From: Desulfovibrio sp.
Lineage (GTDB): Bacteria; Desulfobacterota; Desulfovibrionia; Desulfovibrionales; Desulfovibrionaceae
Direction of reading: 5' to 3'
Assembly (NCBI GenBank): GCA_017415765.1
Contig: JAFQED010000031.1
Span: 1-39,446 of the forward strand
DNA length: 39,446 bases
Position 1 is the first letter of the stretch. Every line of letters starts with the position of its first letter. The position numbers were made by a program, and so were the translations under genes. The notes below the pieces were generated by a model. It saw only the letters and a program-made list of their open reading frames with translations, was not told the origin of the DNA and ran no database searches. This document shows, piece after piece, positions 20,968 through 32,656 of the stretch.

Positions 20968-20996
20968 TTGACAATTTTCGGTCTTGCCCGCATAAA
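20968..20996 (+). promoter_or_regulatory. Candidate promoter of the glycogen operon
   Basis: A consensus TTGACA at 20968-20973, 17 bases, then CATAAA at 20991-20996. It would give a leader of about 200 bases before the debranching-enzyme start at 21205. The gap 20847-21204 otherwise holds no supported gene; the frame is open through the leader but lacks a good start until 21205. Confidence 0.45.
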
Positions 20997-21204
20997 TCTG
21001 CCTCCCTTGCCGGTAAAGCCCTCGACAAGGCGATTTGTTTGGGATATTTTTAATGTGTACCAGCAATGGCTGCCCCATGATGGGCTGCCTTGCAGGCCGG
21101 ATGACGCTCCGTTCTGCCAGCGGTCTGTGGTCTTTTCCCTCCTTTTCTCTGCCCAGCCGCAGCGTTTCCGGTCTCACTCCAGCCGTCAGTTCCAAGGAGC
21201 CTCC

Positions 21205-23265
21205 ATGCGGTTCAGCTTCGACAAGGCCGCCTGTCAAAATACGCGCCGGGCATTGCGTAAGGAATGGGTTTTGACCAACGGTCTGGGCGACTATGCCAGC
21301 AGCAGTATCCTCGGCTGCAATACCCGCAAGTACCACGGTTTGCTGGTGGTCAACACCCTGCACGGCAGGCAAGTCCTGCTCTCTACACTTGAGGAATCCG
21401 TGTACGGTGGCGGTAAGGAGTTTTTTCTCTCCACTCGCCAGCACCCCAGTATGCTCTACCCCAACGGGCTGGAGTATCAGGAAAGCTTTGAGCTGGAAGA
21501 TGTCCCCTGCTTCACCTACCGCATAGGGGATGTGCGTCTGCGGCGTGAGGTGCTGCTGGTACACGGTGCAAGCCGTCTTCTGGTACGCTGGACAGTGGAA
21601 GGCCCCAAGGGGATCCCGCCGCTGACGCTGCGCGTCAAGCCGCTGCTGGCCTATCGCGGTTTTCATCAGCTTACCCATGCCAATTCCCATTTGCGGGTAC
21701 GCACCACCCCCATCAAGGGCGGTTTCAGCATTTCGCCCTATGAGGGCATGCCCGATTTCTGCATGCAGAGCAGTCTGCCGCAGACTTTCTTCCCCTCACC
21801 CGACTGGTATTACAATGTGGAATACCTTGCAGAGCGTGCGCGCGGCTTTGCTGACAGCGAGGAATTGTTCCGCCCCGGCATCATGGACATCCCCCTGCCA
21901 GCCCTGCCGGGAGGTGGCAGTGTACTGCTGCACTTTGGGCTTGCCCCCTGCACTGACGACATTGAAACCCTGTGGCAGCAGGAGCTGGAAGCCAAACGCA
22001 GCAAGAGCCATGCTTGCAGCGGCCTTGCCGGGCATCTTGCCGACCAGACGCGCCAGTTCTGCATCACCGGCCCTTCCGGGCGTGAGGCGGTGCTGGCGGG
22101 CTACCACTGGTTTGACGCCTGGGGGCGCGATACCCTCATTGCCCTGCCGGGCCTGACCTTCTGTGCCGGTCAGACAGAATTTGGTCTGCGCGTCCTGGAG
22201 CAGGTGGCCGCCAGTCTGCATGACGGCCTTGTACCCAACTGCTTTGCCGAAAATGACGCCCACGCCTATAATTCTGTGGACGCCTCCCTCTGGTATGCCT
22301 TTGCCGTGCAATGCTACCTGCAAGCCTGCCCCGATGGCCTTGGCTGGGTACGCGAACACGCCTGGCCCGCCATCAAGGCCATTATCAACGGCTACCGCAA
22401 GGGGCCGGGCATGGGCATCTTTGTGGACGACAACGGTCTGCTGCACGCCGGCAATGCCCAGACCCAGCTCACCTGGATGGACGCCCAGGCCAATGGCAAG
22501 CCTGTGACCCCGCGCCACGGCTGCCCGGTAGAGATCAACGCCCTCTGGTACAATACCCTGGCCTTTGCCGACTATCTGGCCGGACAGTTCCGGGAGCCGG
22601 AATGGGAAAGCACCCAGGCTTTGCGTACCCTGCGTGCGGCCTTTTTCGAGCACTTCTGGGTGGCGCATTCCGGCGGCTATCTGGGCGATGTCTGGCGGGA
22701 TGGTATGCTGGATCAGAGCATCCGCCCCAACCAGATATTTGCCGTCTCCCTGCCCTACCCTGTGCTGGAAGAACAATACCAGGCGCAGGTGGTGGAATGT
22801 GTGCGCAACACCCTGCTTACCCCCTATGGTCTGCGCACCCTTGCCCCCAACGACCCGCAATACAAGGGCCGTTACGAAGGCGGCCCGCTGGAGCGGGATT
22901 CTGCCTACCATCAGGGCACTGTCTGGCCGTGGCCACTGGGGCATTATACCGATGCCCTGCTGCGCGTGGCCTGGGATGTGGACGGGGCCGTACAGGGCTT
23001 GCTCGACACCATCATGCCGCTCTTTACCGAACATCTTGCCCGCTCCGGCCTTGGCAGTATCTCCGAGGTCTTTGACGCTTCGCCGCCCTATCGCGCCAGT
23101 GGTTGCGTGGCACAAGCCTGGAGCGTGGCCGAAGTCCTGCGTATGCTCATCCGGCTCCAGCAGGCCGCCCCGGCTGTCTATGCGGCCTGGGAGCCAAGGG
23201 TGGCCCAACTGCTGGCCAAACCCGTGGGGGATACGGCTGGCATCTGCCGTGTGACAGGCCTGTAA
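21205..23265 (+). CDS. Glycogen debranching enzyme (amylo-alpha-1,6-glucosidase)
   Basis: This is a 686-residue cytoplasmic enzyme that hydrolyses alpha-1,6 branches. The N-terminal beta domain (about 1-260) begins RFSFDKAACQNTRRALRKEWVLTNGLGDYASSS, with YHGLLV after it. The C-terminal (alpha/alpha)6 barrel has the catalytic region WFDAWGRDTLIALPGL near residue 302, where the Asp of GRD is a catalytic acid, and later WNTLAF/GTVWPWPLGHY. This matches GDE_N plus GDE_C. ATG 21205 follows aaggag. It is the first gene of the glycogen operon and would trim the branch stubs left by the phosphorylase encoded at its end. Confidence 0.92.
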   Translation: MRFSFDKAACQNTRRALRKEWVLTNGLGDYASSSILGCNTRKYHGLLVVNTLHGRQVLLSTLEESVYGGGKEFFLSTRQHPSMLYPNGLEYQESFELEDVPCFTYRIGDVRLRREVLLVHGASRLLVRWTVEGPKGIPPLTLRVKPLLAYRGFHQLTHANSHLRVRTTPIKGGFSISPYEGMPDFCMQSSLPQTFFPSPDWYYNVEYLAERARGFADSEELFRPGIMDIPLPALPGGGSVLLHFGLAPCTDDIETLWQQELEAKRSKSHACSGLAGHLADQTRQFCITGPSGREAVLAGYHWFDAWGRDTLIALPGLTFCAGQTEFGLRVLEQVAASLHDGLVPNCFAENDAHAYNSVDASLWYAFAVQCYLQACPDGLGWVREHAWPAIKAIINGYRKGPGMGIFVDDNGLLHAGNAQTQLTWMDAQANGKPVTPRHGCPVEINALWYNTLAFADYLAGQFREPEWESTQALRTLRAAFFEHFWVAHSGGYLGDVWRDGMLDQSIRPNQIFAVSLPYPVLEEQYQAQVVECVRNTLLTPYGLRTLAPNDPQYKGRYEGGPLERDSAYHQGTVWPWPLGHYTDALLRVAWDVDGAVQGLLDTIMPLFTEHLARSGLGSISEVFDASPPYRASGCVAQAWSVAEVLRMLIRLQQAAPAVYAAWEPRVAQLLAKPVGDTAGICRVTGL

Positions 23266-23319
23266 GACATGGAAACAACCCCGCGCAGCCCATCTGTAGC
23301 GGGATGCAAGGATACAGTG

Positions 23320-24645
23320 ATGCGAGTGTTAATGTTCGGCTGGGAGTTCCCGCCGCATATCAGCGGGGGGCTGGGCACAGCCTGCTACGGCATGACCCGC
23401 GCCCTGGCCAAAAAAGGTGCGCAGATCATCTTTGTACTGCCGCGCGTTGGCGAGGGTGAACCCAACGACTTTCTGAAGATACGCTCTGCCTCAGGCACGC
23501 CCATTACAGCGGACATGAGCGAACGTATGAGCCATGCCGGGCAGGATGTCTGGCAGGAGAACATCCGCTGGCGCAGTGTGGATAGCCCACTCTTCCCCTA
23601 TATGACGCCCGAAAGCTACGAGGAGTCCCTGCGCTGGGTGCACAAGGCCCATACGGCCGGACATGAGGAGATCCGCCACTGGTCGGGCATCCCCTTCACC
23701 TACAGCCTCAAGGGCGGCTACGGGCCAGACCTGATGAGCGAGGTCAGCCGCTACAGCCAACTGGCCGGAGCCATTGCCGCCGAGGAAGATTTTGACGTTA
23801 TCCACGCCCATGACTGGATGACCTATCCGGCGGGTATGCTGGCCAAGGCCCTGACCGGCAAGCCGCTGGTGGTGCATATCCACGCCACGGAATACGACCG
23901 CTGCGGGGAGAATGTGAATGACATCGTGGCGGGCATTGAACGGGCGGGGCTGCTGGCTGCCGACAAGGTGGTGGCTGTCAGCCGTCTGACCCGCAAGGTC
24001 GTTATAGAACGCTACGGCGTGCCGCCGGAAAAGGTGACCGTTGTCTATAACGCCGTGGCCCGGCATGAGGTGGAACGCCGCTACGAGATCCCGCCGCGCA
24101 TCCGGCACGAAAAACGGGTGCTTTTCCTGGGGCGTGTCACCTTTCAGAAAGGGCCGGAATACTTTATGGAAGCCGCACGCCTTGTGCTGGAAAAGATCCC
24201 CAATGCCCGCTTTTTCATGGCTGGCAGCGGTGACATGCTGCCCCGGCTGATCCGGCGTGCCGGGCAGTTGCGCATCGGCAACCGCTTCCATTTTGCGGGC
24301 TTCCTGCGCGGTGAGGAAGTTGACCGCATGTTCGCCCTGAGCGACCTCTATGTGATGCCCTCGGTTTCGGAACCCTTTGGTATCACCCCGCTGGAAGCCA
24401 TGCTCTATGACGTGCCCGTGTTGCTGTCCCGCCAGTCGGGTGTCTCTGAAGTGCTGGAACACGCCCTCAAGGCCGACTTCTGGGATACACGCGACATGGC
24501 CGACAAGATCTGCGCCGTCCTGCGCTATCCCCGCCTGGCCGAAGCACTGGTCAGGAACTGCCGGGAAGAAATGAAATCCATCCGCTGGGAAAACGCGGCG
24601 GATGAACTGATGCTTGTTTACCGTAACGTCACCGGAGGCAACTGA
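23320..24645 (+). CDS. GT4 glycosyltransferase, glycogen-operon type
   Basis: This is a 441-residue GT-B enzyme. The N-terminal Rossmann domain starts MRVLMFGWEFPPHISGGLGTACYGM and contains VIHAHDWMTYPAGMLA; the C-terminal domain has VLFLGRVTFQKGPEYFMEAARLV and the donor-site motif EPFGITPLEAM (E-x7-E). The first domain resembles bacterial starch synthases with their K/RxGGL loop changed to SGGLG. ATG 23320 has aaggat upstream; a far weaker ATG lies at 23269. It starts 54 bases after the debranching enzyme. It probably uses an NDP-glucose to extend or start an alpha-glucan, which is inferred from the operon. Confidence 0.85.
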   Translation: MRVLMFGWEFPPHISGGLGTACYGMTRALAKKGAQIIFVLPRVGEGEPNDFLKIRSASGTPITADMSERMSHAGQDVWQENIRWRSVDSPLFPYMTPESYEESLRWVHKAHTAGHEEIRHWSGIPFTYSLKGGYGPDLMSEVSRYSQLAGAIAAEEDFDVIHAHDWMTYPAGMLAKALTGKPLVVHIHATEYDRCGENVNDIVAGIERAGLLAADKVVAVSRLTRKVVIERYGVPPEKVTVVYNAVARHEVERRYEIPPRIRHEKRVLFLGRVTFQKGPEYFMEAARLVLEKIPNARFFMAGSGDMLPRLIRRAGQLRIGNRFHFAGFLRGEEVDRMFALSDLYVMPSVSEPFGITPLEAMLYDVPVLLSRQSGVSEVLEHALKADFWDTRDMADKICAVLRYPRLAEALVRNCREEMKSIRWENAADELMLVYRNVTGGN

Positions 24646-26042
24646 TGCCGAGCTTATGTCTTTGCTACGCCGTCCACGAGCCCTACCGTCTGCGCCGTTA
24701 CACGGTCTTTGATATGGGCCAGAATTCGGCCTACGAGGATGACGACCATAACTGCGACGCCCTCCTCCATGCGGCCCGTGCCTGTTATCTGCCCATGAAC
24801 GACGTGCTGATGCGTATTATCCGTCGCCACGGCAAGGCCTTCAAGCTGGCCTTCTCCATTTCGGGCACGGCCCTCGACCAGTTCGAGCAGTATGCCCCTG
24901 AAGTGCTGGACAGCTTCAAGGCCCTGGCCGACACAGGCTGTGTGGAGTTCCTGGCAGAAACCGCGCCCCACTCGCTGGCCTTCCTCTATTCGCGTGAGGA
25001 GTTTGCCCTTCAGGTCAAACAGCACTGTGCGCGCATCAAGCAGGTGTTCGGGGTCAAGCCCACCACCTTCCGCCATACGGAGCTGGTCTATAACAACGAC
25101 CTGGCCGCAGCCCTGCAAGCTCTGGGCTTCAAGGCAGTGCTGGCCGAAGGTACCGACCATGTACTGGGCTGGCGCAGTCCCAACTGGCTCTACCAGCCGG
25201 TCAGTGCCCCCGGCATGGGGCTGTTGCTCCGCAACTGCCAGCTTTCTGCCGACATTGGCCGCCGCTTCAGCGACCAGAGCTGGAATCAATGGCCGCTCAC
25301 GGCCGAGAAATATGCCTCCTGGGTACACAGCCTGGCGGACGAGGCGGAAGTCATCAACATTTTCAATGACTGCCATTCCTTTGGCTTACGCAACCCTGCC
25401 TCTTCGGGCATCTTCGAGTTTATGGAAGCCCTGCCCGATGCCATCCTCGCCCACAAGGATTTCAGCTTTGCCACCCCTGCGGAAGTGGTCAAAAAGCGCA
25501 CGCCCGTGGGTGAAATAGACATGCCCCAGTTCATGTCCTGGGATGACGAGGGGGCCGACCTCACAGCATGGCTTGGCAACGACATGCAGAAGGATGCCAT
25601 CCATTCCCTGTATGCCCTGACAGAACGTGTCCGCAAGCTGGATGCCCCTGACCTGCACCGCGACTTCGAGCGTCTGCAAACCTCGGAGCATTTCCACTAT
25701 ATTTCCACCAAGTGGTTTGCCAACTTCGTGCCTGACAGGCCCAACCCCTTCCAAAGCCCCTACGATGCGTACATTGCCTACATGAACGTACTGGCGGACT
25801 TTGAAATGCGCGTTGGCGCGGCCGAAGCCGCTGCCGCTCCAAAGAAAGCCACGCGCACAGCAGGGCGGAAGGCAGCAGCCCCCGCAACAGACACAGCAAA
25901 AGCCAAAACGACAGGCAGGACGGCCAGCAAGAGCAAGGCGGTCGCCAAACCGGCCAAGGCAGAAAGCCCTGCCGCTGATACATCCCGCCCTGCCAGCAGG
26001 CGCGGGAGCAAAGCCAAAACCGAAACAGTCCGGGGCAGGTAA
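24645..26042 (+). CDS. GH57-family alpha-glucan-acting enzyme with Lys/Ala-rich tail
   Basis: This is a 465-residue protein. The body (1-394) looks like GH57 alpha-amylase: region 1 HEPYRLRRY, FRHTELVYNND, then LAEGTDHVLGWRSPNW with the candidate nucleophile Glu168. Region 4 reads NDCHSFGLR instead of DYETFGEH, keeping the acid Asp242 but losing the flanking Glu and Glu-His. The activity could be hydrolysis, transglycosylation or branching. Residues 395-465 form a disordered tail of Lys, Ala, Thr and Ser like histone H1 C-tails. The ATG overlaps the GT4 stop by one base (TGATG). Confidence 0.85.
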   Translation: MPSLCLCYAVHEPYRLRRYTVFDMGQNSAYEDDDHNCDALLHAARACYLPMNDVLMRIIRRHGKAFKLAFSISGTALDQFEQYAPEVLDSFKALADTGCVEFLAETAPHSLAFLYSREEFALQVKQHCARIKQVFGVKPTTFRHTELVYNNDLAAALQALGFKAVLAEGTDHVLGWRSPNWLYQPVSAPGMGLLLRNCQLSADIGRRFSDQSWNQWPLTAEKYASWVHSLADEAEVINIFNDCHSFGLRNPASSGIFEFMEALPDAILAHKDFSFATPAEVVKKRTPVGEIDMPQFMSWDDEGADLTAWLGNDMQKDAIHSLYALTERVRKLDAPDLHRDFERLQTSEHFHYISTKWFANFVPDRPNPFQSPYDAYIAYMNVLADFEMRVGAAEAAAAPKKATRTAGRKAAAPATDTAKAKTTGRTASKSKAVAKPAKAESPAADTSRPASRRGSKAKTETVRGR

Positions 26043-26085: not shown

Positions 26086-29000
26086 ATGGAGTTCAACAAG
26101 GCCCCGGTGACCCTGTTTGAAGTAAGCTGGGAAGTATGCAACAAGGTCGGCGGTATCTATACCGTTGTGAGCAGCAAGGCCCTGCAGGCCATTGAAAGTT
26201 TTGGCGAGGACTACTTCCTGCTGGGGCCGTGCCTGCAACACAATCCCGGTTTTGAAGAAACCGATGAGCATATCTGGGATTCCCTGCGCCGTGCGCTCAA
26301 TGCCAGGAATCTCAAATGCCGTCTGGGACGCTGGGACATCCCCGGCCGTCCCAAGGCTGTGCTGGTGGAGTTTGACAAACGCTATTCCAGCAACCAGCTG
26401 CTCTACGACCTCTGGAAAAATTATGGGGTGGATTCGCTTTCCGGCGGCTGGGACTATATCGAGCCTGTCATGTTTTCCTCGGCCTGTGGCGAAGTCATCG
26501 CCACCATCCACGAGGCACTGGTGCAGCCGCTGGGTGGGCGTTCGCTGGCTCATTTCCATGAATGGATGTGCGGGGCCGGCCTTTTGATGCTGAAAAAGAT
26601 CGCCCCGGCCATCGGCACGGTCTTCACCACCCACGCCACCATGCTGGGACGTGCCCTTGCCGGCAGCGGGCGGGATATTTACTACGACCTGCGCTCCATC
26701 AACCCCGCCAATGAGGCTGCCGCCCAGAACATCACCGCCAAGTGGTCCATGGAAAGCACCAGCGCGCGTGAGGCCGACGCCTTCACCACCGTCAGCCCCA
26801 TCACGGGCGAGGAATCGGCCGTCTTTCTGGGCCGCCAGCCCGATGCCATCACCGTGAACGGGCTGGACATGCGCGTCATCCCCGACTACTCCACCCAGCG
26901 CGCCACGCCGCTGGCCCATCGCGCCAGGGTGCTGGCCGCCGCGCAACGCTTCCTGCGCTGCTTCCTGCCCGAAAATACCCGTATCTTTGCCATTTCCGGC
27001 CGGTACGAGCTGCACAACAAGGGCATTGACATCTTTCTGGAAGCCCTGGCCCAGGCAGAAAAAAGCCTTGCCGGTACGGATGCCACCGTTCTGGCCCTCT
27101 GCCTTGCCATGGGCGGGCATACCGGGCCCAATGTGGAAGCCATCGAGGGGCGGCCCGGTGTCAGTGATAATGGGCAGCCCTTCATCTGCACCCACCATGC
27201 CTGGAATGCCCCGCAGGATCCCATCATCACCGCATGCCGGCGACTGGGGCTGAACAACCAGCCGGAAAACCGCGTCAAGGTTATCTTTGTACCGGCCATG
27301 CTGGACGGGAATGACGGCTTCCTGAACATGCCCTATGAGGATGTCATCGCCGCCTGCGACATGGGCTTCTTCCCCTCCTGGTACGAGCCGTGGGGCTATA
27401 CCCCGCAGGAATGTGCGGCCTGGGCCGTGCCTACCCTGACCACCGACCTTTCGGGCTTCGGCATGTGGGCGCGCTCCTACGAGCAGGAACACGGCATCAG
27501 CCAGCCCGGCGTGCTGGTCATGCCCCGGCGCGGCACCACCAACGAACAGAGCGTTGCTACCCTGCACAAGCATGTGGTGGAGGCTGCCACCTGCCCGGCC
27601 GAACGCCTGGCCCAGTGGCGCAAGGAGGCCCGCAAGCAGGCCGAACATACCTCGTGGAGCCACTTTTTCAATCAGTACCTCAAGGCCTTCAATACCGCGC
27701 TGGAACTGGCCGACAGCCGCCTGTTTGGCGCAGACTGTGACAATGAGAGCATGAGGCGCGTGCTGGCTGCCTCCTCCTCCGCAACGCCCTTCCTGCGCCA
27801 GATGACGGCTGTGGCCGAGCTGCCGGAGGCCCTGTCACGGCTGCGCGACCTTTCGCGCAACCTCTGGTGGTGCTGGAGCGACAAGGCCAGGGCACTCTTC
27901 ATGGGACTCAATCCCCAGCTCTGGGACGAATGCCACAACCCCATCCGTATGCTGGAAGAAGCCGATGCAGAACGGCTCAACTACCTGGTGTACAATGAAG
28001 AATACATGCGTACCTACGATGAGGTGCTGGCAGAATTCGACGCCTACATGGCCGAAAGCCCCCACGTCCTCAGCGAACATGTGACGCCGCAGTACCCGGT
28101 GGCCTATTTCTCCACCGAGTACGGCATCAACGAATCCGTGCCCATCTATTCCGGCGGCCTGGGCGTCCTTTCCGGCGACCACCTCAAATCCGCCTCGGAT
28201 CTGGGCATCCCGCTCATCGGCATCGGTCTGCTTTACAAGCACGGCTATTTCCAGCAGGTCATCGACGAACATGGCCGTCAGGTAGCCACCTACCCCATCA
28301 ACAACCTCAGCCAGCTTCCCGTTGAGCAGGTCTGCGATACAGCGGGCGAACCTGTCTATATCCAACTGGAGCTGCCCGGCCGTATCCTGTACGCCAAGAT
28401 ATGGAAGCTCCAGGTAGGCCGTGTGCCGCTCTACCTGCTGGACAGCGACAGCAACCGCAATACCGAGGAAGACCGCCACATCACCGACAAGCTCTATGAA
28501 GCCAATCGTGAAGTGCGCCTCCTGCAGGAAATACTTTTGGGTATGGGTGGCATCCGCCTTATCCGTACCCTGGGTATCACGCCCCATGTCTTCCACATGA
28601 ACGAAGGCCATTCGGCCTTCCTTGTCATCGAGCGTTTGCAGGAATGTATGCGTACGGGCATGACCTACGCGGAGGCCACGACACGGGTACGCTCCAATAC
28701 GGTCTTCACCACGCATACCCCTGTACCGGCGGGCAACGAAGCCTTCTCCCTTGACCTGGTGGAACGCTACTTCAGCGGTATTGCCGCCAATCTCGGCCTT
28801 TCCTGGGCACAGTTCGCCCAACTGGGCCAGATGGAGGGCGGCAACACGCACAACTTTGAAATGACTGTGCTGGCCCTGCGGCTTTCCTCGTGGGCCAATG
28901 GTGTCAGCCGTATGCACGGCGAGGTTTCGCGCCATATGTGGAACAAGCTCTGGAAGAGCCTGCCCCTGGCCGAGACCCCCATCACCCATGTGACCAACGG

Positions 29001-30345
29001 CATCCATACGCCGTCCTATGTGGGTATCCACATGAACTCCCTGCTGGAGCAGTACCTTGGGCCAGACTGGCTGCAGGCCTCGCCCGAAGACCCCATCTGG
29101 GAGAAGGTGGACGACATCCCCGACGAACTCTACTGGAACACGCGGCTGGCCCAGAAGGAAAACCTGCTTGAGGCCCTGCGTGCAGGCATCCCCGCCTTTG
29201 TGCAGAAATTCCATCTTTCTGCCGAAGCCCGGCAGCGCATGGAGCGCGCCCTGCGGCCGGATACGCTGGTCATCGGTTTTGCCCGCCGCTTTGCCCCCTA
29301 CAAGCGGGCGACCCTGCTCTTTGCCGACCCTGACCGGCTGGCCCGTATCCTTAACGACCCCAAGCGTCCTGTCTGCTTTGTCTTTGCCGGCAAGGCCCAT
29401 CCGGCGGACGTGGCCGGCATCGACCTTATCCAGGAGGTGCTGCGCCTCAGCCGCGATGAACGCTTCCTCGGCAAGATATTCTTTATGGAAAACTACAGCC
29501 TTGCCACCTCGCGTCTGCTTTCGCAGGGTTGCGATGTCTGGCTGAACACGCCGCGCCGTCCGCACGAGGCTTCCGGCACCAGCGGCATGAAGCTGCCTGT
29601 CAACGGCGGCATCAACCTGAGCATTTCCGACGGCTGGTGGTGCGAGGGCTATAACCGCGCCAACGGCTGGACCATTGGCCCGGTCTATACCACGGATCTG
29701 CCCAGTGAAGCGCAGAACGACTACGATGACGCCGAATCGCTCTACAAGCTGCTGGAAGGCGCGGTGCTGCCGCTCTACTTTGACCTGAACCCCGCAGGGC
29801 TGCCCGCCAACTGGATCGCCGTGTCCAAGCGTTCCTTGAAGAGCCTTACCGCCATGTACAGCAGCAATCGCATGCTGGCCGACTATGCGCGAGAAGCCTA
29901 CCTGCCCGCCGCCGAGCGGCGCGACCTGCTGGCCGAGAATTCCTGGGAGCTTTGCCGCAAGGTAGCGGCCTGGCAGGCGGAAGTACCGAGCCGCTTCGGT
30001 ACCCTGAAGCTGGAAGAAGTCATCCTCAGCGGCGTCAAGGACAATGTCATGACCTGCGGCGAACCCATCAATGTGCGTCTGCACATGCACCTGGGCGAAA
30101 TGAAGCCGGAGGAGATCCTTGTCCAACTGGTCATTGGTCGCACCTATCATAATGGCAACTTCCGGGGCAAGCCCGAGATACTGCGGCTGGAACCGCGCCC
30201 GGCCGATCATGGCACGGACGGCATGAACTACAGCGCGACCTACATCCCACCGCACAACGGGCAGTACCGCTTCGGCATCCGGGTCATCCCGGTCTGCAAG
30301 GGCCAGTCCACCCTGCTGGACAGCGGGCTGGTGCTTTGGGCGTAA
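26086..30345 (+). CDS. Fusion of GT3 glycogen synthase and GT35 alpha-glucan phosphorylase
   Basis: This 1419-residue protein joins a synthase and a phosphorylase. Residues 1 to about 560 resemble GT3 (eukaryote-type) glycogen synthase: [53 protein letters not shown], and EPWGYTPQE with Glu434 and Glu442 (E-x7-E). From about 575 comes a DUF3417 start ([13 protein letters not shown]) and then the phosphorylase of the short type, with HMNEGHSAF and the PLP-lysine motif [13 protein letters not shown] (Lys1169). The gene is intact, with no stop between domains. The start follows gaggag. It would both make and break glycogen; the balance must be set by ligands or protein state, which I cannot see. 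Confidence 0.9.
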
Positions 30346-30371
30346 GGACGCCGGAACATATCTGATATGCG

Positions 30372-30402
30372 AGAGGGCACTCCCACGGGAGTGCCCTCTT
30401 TC
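30372..30402 (+). terminator. Terminator of the glycogen operon
   Basis: A 13-bp near-perfect stem (agagggcactccc / gggagtgccctct) with a minimal loop, then ttt, 27 bases after the stop codon. Confidence 0.88.
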
Positions 30403-30518
30403 ACATAAGGATACAGTGTGTCCATCCATGGCGCAGATGCTGTATATCGTTACCATGTCCCAAAAAGCACAATAAAAACAATATATTGACAGAAAATCCG
30501 CAATTTTTTGCATGGTTA

Positions 30519-30547
30519 TTGACCCTTGCGCCAAAGTCCAGTAAAAG
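30519..30547 (+). promoter_or_regulatory. Candidate promoter of the YeiH-type transporter
   Basis: TTGACC, 17 bases, TAAAAG (5 of 6 and 4 of 6 to consensus), 35 bases before the start codon. A second TTGACA lies at 30486-30491 without a good partner. Confidence 0.3.
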
Positions 30548-30582
30548 TAAAAAATCACAAACGTGTCCGCAGGAGGATAGGC

Positions 30583-32307
30583 ATGTCTCAGGCAAATAGC
30601 GATGTCGTTATCGACAGGGGGAAGTCCTCTTGGTCTGACCTTTGGACCAAGGAAGACTACTGGGCAATCTGGATCGGCGTTTTTATTCTCGCCGTGACGC
30701 TTGGCTGCATCTGGAGCAACAAATCCGGGCTGGAAACCAAGTACAACGAGTACGCGGCCATCATCAAGGCCGAGAAGGAAAAACCCATCAAAACCATCGA
30801 GTTCTTTGAAGCCACTGCCAAGCAGAAGGGCCTCAAGGGCAGCTCTTTGGACACCGTCAAGTCTTTCATCGATACCATGAAGACCCCGGCCCGCTGGTCG
30901 GACAACCCCATGGACTCGCTCATCCTGAGCAAGGCCGCTGCCGACAAGGCCAATGAAGCCGTCAAGCCCAAGGTGGACGCCGCTGCCGCTGCCGAAAAGG
31001 ACGCCCTTGCCGCCGCCCGCGTGGCACAGGACGCCGCTGCTGCTGCCTCCTATGCTGACGCCGCCCTCAATGCCGAGGCGGAAAAGGCCATCGGCGAATG
31101 GCAGAAGGCCAAGAAGGCCACTGCCGATGCCAAGAAGAAAATCAAGAAGCCCTTCAACCGCATCCCCGGCCTGATCATCCTTGGCCTGGTGCTGGGCGGT
31201 CTGGTCACCCTTGGCGCGGCCGTCATGGGCTACAACCCGCTCAAGTTCTTCCTGGGCTTCCTGGGCGTCTATGTGCTTTGCGTGCTGGCCAATATCTTCG
31301 GCAACCAGCTTACGGGCCGCAAGTACGGCCTGAACGCCGAAGTCTGGTCCATCATCCTCGGCCTTCTTATCGCCAACACCATCCGTACGCCCAAATGGCT
31401 GGAATACAGCGCGCAGACCGAATACTACATCAAGACCGGTCTTGTGCTGCTGGGTGCGGAAGTGCTCTTCCACAAGATCATGGCCATCGGTATCCCCGGC
31501 ATCTTCGTGGCCTGGGTGGTCACGCCCATCGTGCTTGTGGTGACCTACCTCTATGGTCAGCACGTCCTGAAGATCCCTTCCAAGACCCTGAACATCACCG
31601 TCTCGGCCGACATGTCGGTGTGCGGTACCTCGGCAGCCATTGCCACCGCCGCTGCCTGCCGCGCCAAGAAGGAAGAACTGACCCTCTCCATCGGTCTTTC
31701 CATGGTCTTCACGGCCATCATGATGATCGCCATGCCCGCCATGATCAAGGCTCTGGGTCTGCCCGGCGTGCTGGGTGGCGCGTGGATCGGCGGTACTGTT
31801 GACTCCACCGGTGCCGTGGCCGCTGCCGGTGCCTTCCTTGGCAATACCGCCATGCAGGTGGCCGCTACCGTCAAGATGATCCAGAACGTGCTCATCGGTG
31901 TCACCGCCTTCTTCGTGGCCCTGTACTGGACCACCAAGGTGGACGTGGCCGAAGGCGAAAAAGTGGGCCTGATGGAAATCTGGCACCGCTTCCCCAAGTT
32001 CGTCATCGGCTTCCTGGGCGTATCCGTCTTCTTCTCCCTGCTGGCCAGCAACCTGGGCAGCTTTGGTGCCGTGATCGTGGATAACGGTGTGCTGGGTGTC
32101 TCCAAGGCCGGTCGCGGCTGGTTCTTTGCCCTGGCCTTCACCTCCATCGGTCTGACCACGGACTTCCGCGCTCTGGCCAAGTACTTCAAGGGTGGCAAGC
32201 CGCTCTTCCTGTACGTTGCCGGTCAGTCCTTCAACATCGCACTGACCCTGCTCATGGCCTGGATCATGTTCTACAAGGTCTTCCCCGAAATCACCGCCAA
32301 GATCTAG
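30583..32307 (+). CDS. YeiH-family putative sulfate/anion exporter with Ala-rich insert
   Basis: This is a 574-residue inner-membrane protein. The first membrane helix is at about 24-46, followed by a 140-residue soluble insert rich in Ala, Lys, Glu and Asp with heptad-like spacing (about 50-190). Then come about ten helices. The membrane part has the YeiH/UPF0324 features GLNAEVWSIILGLLIAN, VSADMSVCGTSAAIA, and SIGLTTDFRAL. These proteins are predicted anion exporters, without firm proof of substrate. Typical members lack the insert and are about 340-350 residues. ATG 30583 has an aggagg site seven bases upstream. Confidence 0.88.
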   Translation: MSQANSDVVIDRGKSSWSDLWTKEDYWAIWIGVFILAVTLGCIWSNKSGLETKYNEYAAIIKAEKEKPIKTIEFFEATAKQKGLKGSSLDTVKSFIDTMKTPARWSDNPMDSLILSKAAADKANEAVKPKVDAAAAAEKDALAAARVAQDAAAAASYADAALNAEAEKAIGEWQKAKKATADAKKKIKKPFNRIPGLIILGLVLGGLVTLGAAVMGYNPLKFFLGFLGVYVLCVLANIFGNQLTGRKYGLNAEVWSIILGLLIANTIRTPKWLEYSAQTEYYIKTGLVLLGAEVLFHKIMAIGIPGIFVAWVVTPIVLVVTYLYGQHVLKIPSKTLNITVSADMSVCGTSAAIATAAACRAKKEELTLSIGLSMVFTAIMMIAMPAMIKALGLPGVLGGAWIGGTVDSTGAVAAAGAFLGNTAMQVAATVKMIQNVLIGVTAFFVALYWTTKVDVAEGEKVGLMEIWHRFPKFVIGFLGVSVFFSLLASNLGSFGAVIVDNGVLGVSKAGRGWFFALAFTSIGLTTDFRALAKYFKGGKPLFLYVAGQSFNIALTLLMAWIMFYKVFPEITAKI

Positions 32308-32329
32308 CTTGTGGCGTACAAATGACGAA

Positions 32330-32358
32330 GGGGGCCGCCATTGCGGCCCCCTTTGCTT
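32330..32358 (+). terminator. Terminator or attenuator after the transporter gene
   Basis: Stem gggggccgc / gcggccccc with a catt loop, then tttgctt. The next gene starts 14 bases later, so partial read-through is likely. Confidence 0.75.
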
Positions 32359-32371
32359 GGAGCATCCTTCC

Positions 32372-32656
32372 ATGCAGAAAGTTCTGGTCATGGTGTTCTG
32401 GCTTGTGGGCCTTGGTGCTTTCTTTCTGGTCGGTTCTCCCTACATGGACAAACTGTTCCCGGACTGGGCGCGCTTCAACGAGATCCAGGAAGTACACGGA
32501 GTCGATAACGCCCACCTCTATTACACCGACCTGCCCATCATCCAGGATGCCGAAGCCGCCAGCCGCGCCGCCGTGCGTGAAGGTATGCAGGCCCGGCGCG
32601 AGGCCGCAGCAGCCAAACGGCAGAAGGCTGCAAGCGGTAACGATGATGCAATGTAG
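32372..32656 (+). CDS. Small one-helix membrane protein of unknown function
   Basis: This is a 94-residue protein. A membrane helix at about 3-22 (VLVMVFWLVGLGAFFLVG) is followed by an aromatic-rich part (YMDKLFPDWARFNEIQEVHGVDNAHLYYTDLP) and a C-terminal charged helix ending in Ala/Arg/Lys. The ATG at 32372 has ggag ten bases upstream. It immediately follows the transporter gene, so it may be an accessory subunit of it. I do not recognise a family. Confidence 0.7.
   Translation: MQKVLVMVFWLVGLGAFFLVGSPYMDKLFPDWARFNEIQEVHGVDNAHLYYTDLPIIQDAEAASRAAVREGMQARREAAAAKRQKAASGNDDAM

Follow-up and report, generated by a model that had tools for sequence, protein, structure and literature searches.

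A single gene on the Desulfovibrio sp. contig JAFQED010000031.1 (assembly GCA_017415765.1; the 39,446 nucleotides analysed are called the window) encodes a glycogen synthase of glycosyltransferase family 3 (GT3) and an alpha-glucan phosphorylase of family GT35 in one polypeptide chain. The fusion is real, a product neither of chance nor of a chimeric contig, and both halves are, on alignment, complete and retain their essential residues. The protein is probably a bifunctional enzyme acting at glycogen chain ends, which it would elongate from UDP-glucose and shorten by phosphorolysis; we give this reading as a whole a probability of about 0.6. The gene is composed as follows.

26086..30345, + strand: GT3 glycogen synthase, DUF3417 and GT35 alpha-glucan phosphorylase fusion, 1419 residues in one open frame without internal stops
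26119..27153, + strand: GT3 half, first part of the PF05693 match (profile positions 1-353), which aligns with human and yeast glycogen synthase
27175..27747, + strand: GT3 half, second part of the PF05693 match (profile positions 410-598), which holds E434 (27385-27387) and E442 (27409-27411)
27721..27819, + strand: linker, residues 546-578 (about 33 residues), its start overlapping the end of the PF05693 match
27820..28137, + strand: DUF3417 (PF11897), residues 579-684, the N-terminal part of alpha-glucan family phosphorylases
28099..29904, + strand: GT35 phosphorylase half, TIGR02094 match, residues 672-1273, with K1169 at 29590-29592 and a motif at residues 1065-1074
29905..30342, + strand: C-terminal region, residues 1274-1419, with no Pfam match of its own; a homologous stretch was matched in most full-length relatives

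The N-terminal half gave a two-part match to the Pfam profile Glycogen_syn (PF05693), spanning residue 12 to about residue 545-554 (1.9e-99; 334.5 bits against a cut-off of 27). The C-terminal half matched DUF3417 (PF11897; 1.3e-30, 106.5 bits against a cut-off of 25), Phosphorylase (PF00343; 1.9e-26) and the NCBIfam model of alpha-glucan family phosphorylases, TIGR02094 (789.6 bits against a cut-off of 191.7). The latter was the sole NCBIfam model passed above its cut-off by the fused protein, and the model of the GT5 synthase GlgA, TIGR02095, reached 19.5 bits, far under its cut-off of 328.45. The open frame and the domain searches of both halves confirmed what a preliminary description of this DNA had claimed, a synthase and a phosphorylase fused in a 1419-residue protein. 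A Shine-Dalgarno-like GAGGAG is found 5 nucleotides upstream of the ATG, and the guanine and cytosine (GC) fractions at the three codon positions (0.62/0.44/0.78) form a coding-like pattern that is unbroken over the junction. An antisense open frame of 1518 residues (27835-32391, - strand) exceeds the gene in length; its codon-position GC indicates a shadow frame.

Chance and a chimeric contig are excluded because the same one-frame architecture was found in 73 relatives in which both halves are complete and in well over 100 sampled genomes, the latter judged by frame length or by crossing of the junction. A frameshift artefact was rejected as well, many relatives being fused. The nearest named relative of the fusion gene, in the Desulfovibrio metagenome-assembled genome (MAG) L003, shares 84% identity over residues 1-1419. 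Across the 73 fused relatives the linker is variable in sequence and nearly constant in length (38-51 residues between query positions 540 and 581, the query being the protein of the window).

Conservation was assessed in 53 representative pairs of GT3 and glycogen phosphorylase sequences, 39 fused (query included) and 14 split into two genes, and residues were checked by sequence alignment to solved homologues. The tested columns are those that we take, from studies of the yeast and rabbit enzymes, to be catalytic or substrate-site positions. In the GT3 half, K20 opens the KVGG motif, THATxLGR and GRYExxNKG are present from residues 182 and 305, and E434 and E442 form the E-x7-E pair; in the other half, the motif EASGTSGMK (1161-1169) ends at K1169. 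Columns H183, R189, Y417, E434 and G437 of the GT3 half were invariant in 53/53 pairs, while R306, K312, T439 and E442 were kept in 52/53. Less strict were E159 (51/53) and K20 (48/53), and position 156 varied (H in 33). On the phosphorylase side, H877, R1068, Y1072, K1073, E1161, G1164, T1165 and K1169 were invariant in all 53 pairs; by analogy with the rabbit enzyme, K1169 is presumably the lysine that binds pyridoxal phosphate (PLP), and R1068 and K1073 presumably belong to the phosphate site. The translated frame has the glutamate pair and the PLP lysine where the preliminary description had placed them, and its view that all key residues are apparently present is supported by these columns, K20 being the looser one.

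One half could instead be mainly a glycogen-binding or regulatory module, with the other alone catalytic in the cell. Enzyme folds can become binding modules, the gene cluster described below contains a GT4 enzyme as another possible synthase, one of the 53 representatives is without the second GT3 glutamate, and one Planctomycetota copy has two in-frame TAG codons in its GT3 part. However, the catalytic columns are otherwise invariant or kept in 52/53 pairs across several phyla, which is unexpected for a module freed from catalysis, and we regard this alternative as very unlikely. The likelihoods attached to this and the other alternatives are not mutually exclusive. The frame of the Planctomycetota copy (L244:25-2181, genome G660) still crosses the junction; its TAG codons may reflect decay, sequence errors or another code.

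Fused and separate genes were surveyed, as the preliminary description had proposed, in samples of the family, of the phylum and of three groups named after the order or phylum of their centre genome, as given by record titles: Bacteroidales (L058), Bacteroidota (L065) and Planctomycetota (L050). The counts include these centre genomes, which were picked for carrying the genes, and, for Planctomycetota, the L064 genome too. Any frame of 1300 residues or more was scored as fused by length. GT3 was found in 51 of the 199 family genomes, representing 8 of 44 genera, and all 52 copies are fused: 49 have frames of 1414-1479 residues and the other three cross the junction and run to the contig end. 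Over the phylum, 4/118 genomes were over the cut-off (that of the window included), with frames of 1421-1441 residues, and two more gave weak matches below it. Among the 246 Planctomycetota genomes, 40 were over the cut-off, 14 with a stand-alone long type of GT3 and 26 with the short type. All 26 short-type copies cross the junction in one frame (23 frames of at least 1300 residues, one fused frame of 1251 residues and two running to the contig end, one of them with the two TAG codons). Among the family and Planctomycetota genomes, six short frames were thus rejected as exceptions, since five (725, 877, 880, 674 and 744 residues, the last being that with the TAG codons) cross the junction to the contig end and the sixth is the fused frame of 1251 residues.

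The Bacteroidales sample gave a GT3 match over the cut-off in 132/149 genomes. Three long-type copies and 129 short-type N-terminal matches were among the matches listed; genomes G467, G473 and G587 lie outside these matches and are not in the classification. The 129 listed short-type matches comprise 101 fused copies, 26 split copies and two that end at the contig end before the junction. Among the fused ones, 96 have frames of at least 1300 residues, three of 777-1183 residues and one of 647 residues cross the junction before meeting a frame break or contig end, and the remaining gene is apparently divided between two contigs. Three of 118 genomes in the wider Bacteroidota sample were over the cut-off, two with the long type and one, the centre genome itself, with the fusion. 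In every one of the 20 copies fetched whole from Bacteroidales and Planctomycetota, a single frame without stops spans both halves. The earlier statement that GT3 is typical of eukaryotes and a few bacterial groups needs a different emphasis, as rarity does not hold in the Bacteroidales sample. A triple fusion with a glycoside hydrolase of family 57 (GH57), suggested by frames of up to 1891 residues, was rejected: no Pfam match was obtained for the upstream parts tested, which read as shadow sequence rich in Arg, Ala, Gly and Pro, and a Met lies about 14 to 22 residues before KVGG in the six long-frame relatives looked at. Fused-type or phosphorylase-half sequences with 50-56% identity were also seen in Deferribacteraceae and Betaproteobacteria MAGs (L042, L079); in the phosphorylase tree, L042 groups within the Desulfovibrionaceae clade. 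Transfer or mis-binned contigs may account for these sequences.

Trees of both halves were built by a 'quick' method, with Shimodaira-Hasegawa-like approximate likelihood ratio test (SH-aLRT) values as the only support and no approximately unbiased (AU) test. Thinning of the rows at 68% identity left 52 of 103 loci, to which the query was added. The GT3 tree has 72 rows; its 14 split rows group together in a single clade (99*) that starred branches place within fused Bacteroidota rows, and a 100* branch parts all short-type rows from the long type; the root rests on these long-type bacterial sequences, with no archaeal GT3 included. The phosphorylase tree (83 rows) likewise unites the split rows in a single clade (100*), and in it a 100* branch sets 64 rows (fused, split or contig-cut) apart from 19 stand-alone phosphorylases belonging to the window's own phylum, an outgroup of one phylum that represents 19 of 30 stand-alone loci (the first 30 of 41 rows were used). 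Eleven rows labelled 'alone' inside the fused clade of this tree were rejected as artefacts of the GT3-half filter: ten carry GT3 on the same frame (L042, L048, L054, L055, L059, L060, L062, L078, L191 and L242) and L041 begins at its contig start, right at the junction. Each half of the query groups with other fused proteins, and the main clades are the same in both trees; the placement of L064 and L072 is not settled in the GT3 tree and the position of L065 differs between the two. Identities of the two halves are correlated (Spearman 0.734; none of 999 permutations was as high), which indicates that they were inherited together. Because the split representatives are one clade nested in fused ones in both trees, the fusion looks ancestral and the split a later fission. 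The simplest account would be that the halves fused once, long ago, were then passed on together, with some transfer from phylum to phylum, and came apart in a single fission.

The phosphorylase gene lies directly downstream in 24/26 split copies, with a gap of 1 to 168 nucleotides (measured to the Met nearest the phosphorylase domain). In the other two, the Bacteroidales loci L249 and L250 (G482 and G528), no phosphorylase was found in the sequence retrieved (14.5 and 15.0 kb). A recent split caused by one stop codon was considered, since the halves were in the same frame in the first 8/8 split loci, and was rejected with a larger set, where 11/24 adjacent pairs are in the same frame and three are separated by a single stop, against a chance level of about one in three; L058 is present in both sets. 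The excess among the first eight probably arose because tblastn is able to merge halves in the same frame into a single match with a high score. The adjacency of the split genes suggests that matched dose or a shared particle may outweigh the covalent link, and the viability of the split clade makes the link look helpful rather than essential. These gaps, together with the variable sequence of the linker, would also fit a precursor protein, in which the fusion would only fix a ratio: the halves would separate by linker proteolysis, or translation from an internal start would yield additional phosphorylase. The nearly constant length of the linker is more like that of a structural tether, no sign of cleavage was seen, and little credence can be given to this alternative. 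The single fission on the trees and its viability in a Bacteroidales clade would also fit an ancient join kept by descent with its halves uncoupled, which is compatible with both activities. Yet the fusion persists in several phyla with a patchy presence (8/44 family genera), and no split copy occurs among the 52 family and 26 short-type Planctomycetota copies; such neutrality is unlikely, although it deserves some weight.

The fusion gene is the last in a tight four-gene cluster, whose genes would be co-transcribed. The other elements are listed below.

20968..23265, + strand: glycogen debranching enzyme, first gene of the cluster, with GDE_N and GDE_C; 375.5 bits with the archaeal-type model TIGR01561 against a cut-off of 364.15
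23269..24645, + strand: GT4-type, GlgA-like glycosyltransferase; 129.9 bits with TIGR02149, below the cut-off of 302.4
24645..26042, + strand: GH57 glycoside hydrolase, 465 residues, directly upstream of the fusion
30373..30398, + strand: 12-bp inverted repeat GAGGGCACTCCC-ACG-GGAGTGCCCTC followed by TTT, a terminator-like cluster end read by eye from the sequence

Past the cluster, a frame of 593 residues (30526-32307, + strand) has a C-terminal Cons_hypoth698 domain of the YeiH-type putative sulfate exporters. Cluster order was compared in 50 loci, fused or contig-cut, that have 5300 nucleotides or more of upstream sequence. GH57 and GT4 genes lie directly upstream in 44/50 and the debranching gene too, in the same order, in 43/50; the exceptions are L031, L052 (debranching gene inverted), L055, L064, L065, L072 and L077. 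No GH57 match was found in the five split loci with as much upstream sequence.

The genome of the window is 2.1 Mb long and 91% complete. The fusion is its sole GT3 and sole TIGR02094 match; in other genomes the TIGR02094 search catches classical-length phosphorylases weakly. A GlgB-like enzyme of family GH13 is encoded elsewhere, with branching-enzyme models on top, below their cut-offs. Five nucleoside triphosphate transferases were found: RfbA, GalU, glucose-1-phosphate cytidylyltransferase and GlmU over their cut-offs, and a fifth without assignment. GlgC was not among these five, and it was over the cut-off in 0/199 family genomes (weaker matches in 189) against 7/14 control genomes. With no GlgC found and one GalU present, the donor is likely to be UDP-glucose. 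In Prevotella bryantii, glycogen formation by way of UDP-glucose has been reported, according to the accessible part of a paper that cites Lou et al. 1997 (PMC4432691).

We hypothesized that GalU would make UDP-glucose, whose glucose the GT3 half would add to non-reducing ends of glycogen, and that the PLP-dependent GT35 half would use phosphate to cleave glucose from ends of this kind, releasing glucose-1-phosphate. Because they share one chain, the halves would be produced in equal numbers (1:1) and stay together on one particle, so that the net direction may be set by metabolites (UDP-glucose versus phosphate and glucose-1-phosphate) more than by separate expression. Together with the debranching enzyme, GT4, GH57 and the GlgB-like enzyme, the fusion could form a compact UDP-glucose-based glycogen system without GlgC. 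The preliminary description had suggested channelling of glucan chains or a single switch between storage and use; the present data are neutral on both, and a covalent switch between the two activities is possible.

Several points weigh against this bifunctional reading. We infer the two activities from conserved residues, and, as the split copies demonstrate, a covalent link is not required. Presence of the fusion is patchy: beside the 8/44 family genera and 4/118 phylum genomes, only the centre genome is fused among the 118 of Bacteroidota. The cluster is not directly upstream in 6/50 fused loci, and its GlgA-like GT4 enzyme could be a second synthase. Absences in the genome of the window alone are weak at 91% completeness; it gave no second TIGR02094 match, and no search was aimed at GT5, glycogenin (GT8) or classical GlgP.

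Another alternative is that the phosphorylase half mainly serves synthesis, trimming or making short chains for extension by GT3 and standing in for a primer system. Phosphorylase is reversible, the role of the plant plastidial phosphorylase in starch synthesis offers a model, and the fusion holds both sites at the same chain end. Eukaryotic GT3 enzymes require a primer, as stated in the accessible part of a 2024 review (PMC11046441). The present data are neutral on the direction of the reaction, and we consider this role rather improbable. A further extension of the bifunctional reading would take the fusion as the ancestral form of short-type bacterial GT3, and still the most frequent one, which arose by a single joining event and then spread over several phyla; its two sites would communicate and act as a built-in substrate cycle. 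One metabolite signal would then raise synthesis and lower phosphorolysis, replacing the kinase and glucose-6-phosphate control of eukaryotes. This extension is doubtful, if worth keeping in mind.

The GT3 half belongs to the same family as human GYS1 and yeast Gsy2, with which it aligned over nearly its whole length, to about residue 543 (phmmer, 5.9e-85 with the human and 8e-79 with the yeast protein), and it shares their E-x7-E pair and surrounding motifs. Unlike the fusion, the eukaryotic enzymes have no attached phosphorylase. The phmmer alignment also showed that the insert of GYS1 is absent, 7 query residues facing 56 human ones between query positions 356 and 364, and that its N- and C-terminal tails have no counterpart; the arginine-rich stretch near the C-terminal end is only partly kept. 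The fused protein thus has neither the insert after residue 356 nor the regulatory tails of the regulated eukaryotic type. Additional helices let eukaryotic GT3s form tetramers, according to the text available of the 2024 review (PMC11046441), and these helices may be the part missing from the fusion. The long-type bacterial GT3s of some Bacteroidota and Planctomycetota (frames of 607-797 residues) match PF05693 and have the same tested residues except K20. They are stand-alone, with a near full-length profile match (563-706 bits), and form a separate 100* clade. Four unfused long-type Planctomycetota GT3s (L137-L140) are each followed by a phosphorylase-like frame in the same orientation, so that GT3 and phosphorylase are neighbours outside the fused clade as well.

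The whole C-terminal half, DUF3417 included, is matched in phmmer by the solved alpha-glucan family phosphorylases PDB 9l6i (1.8e-180) and 20yr (1.2e-179). Those chains, of 852 and 872 residues, and the 19 stand-alone relatives in the tree have no GT3 on their frame. The archaeal phosphorylase model NF041129 matches this half below its cut-off. Records of Parabacteroides distasonis and Bacteroides finegoldii in a plasmid collection have the same two proteins in the same order, annotated as two adjacent, unfused genes. The TreS-Mak fusion and the GlgA-GlgB fusion of Waddlia likewise carry two glycogen-pathway enzymes per chain. They join steps of synthesis, not opposing reactions, and the branching half in Waddlia is described as non-functional, as far as the accessible parts of two papers tell (PMC7935935, PMC11046441).

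The components of the fusion are known and its architecture is probably catalogued, while its function was not found described. We presume, unconfirmed here, that the GT3-GT35 domain pair is among the Pfam and InterPro architectures and doubly listed in CAZy. No description of the fusion was found in the literature searched, which was seen in part and did not extend to most subscription journals. The 2024 review of prokaryotic alpha-glucan enzymes covers the GT3s of Bacteroidetes and of the Planctomycetes-Verrucomicrobia-Chlamydiae (PVC) group with a GT3 tree, and its accessible text does not mention the fusion (PMC11046441). A 2023 review of gut glycogen genes states that GlgC is missing from Bacteroidetes, whose enzymes may resemble the human ones more closely; neither 'fused' nor 'fusion' is used in its main text, in the portion available (PMC10395257).

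Because the sole NCBIfam model that the fused protein passes is a phosphorylase model, genomes that carry the fusion may appear to have no synthase. In Fibrobacter succinogenes, the best-documented case of glycogen cycling, separate synthase and phosphorylase genes are reported in the accessible part of the source (PMC6204037). The substrate-cycle extension, if true, might bear on glycogen cycling in bacteria. Glycogen synthesis and breakdown are a textbook opposing pair under separate control, and a conserved single chain with both, found in several phyla, makes their coupling in one enzyme directly testable.

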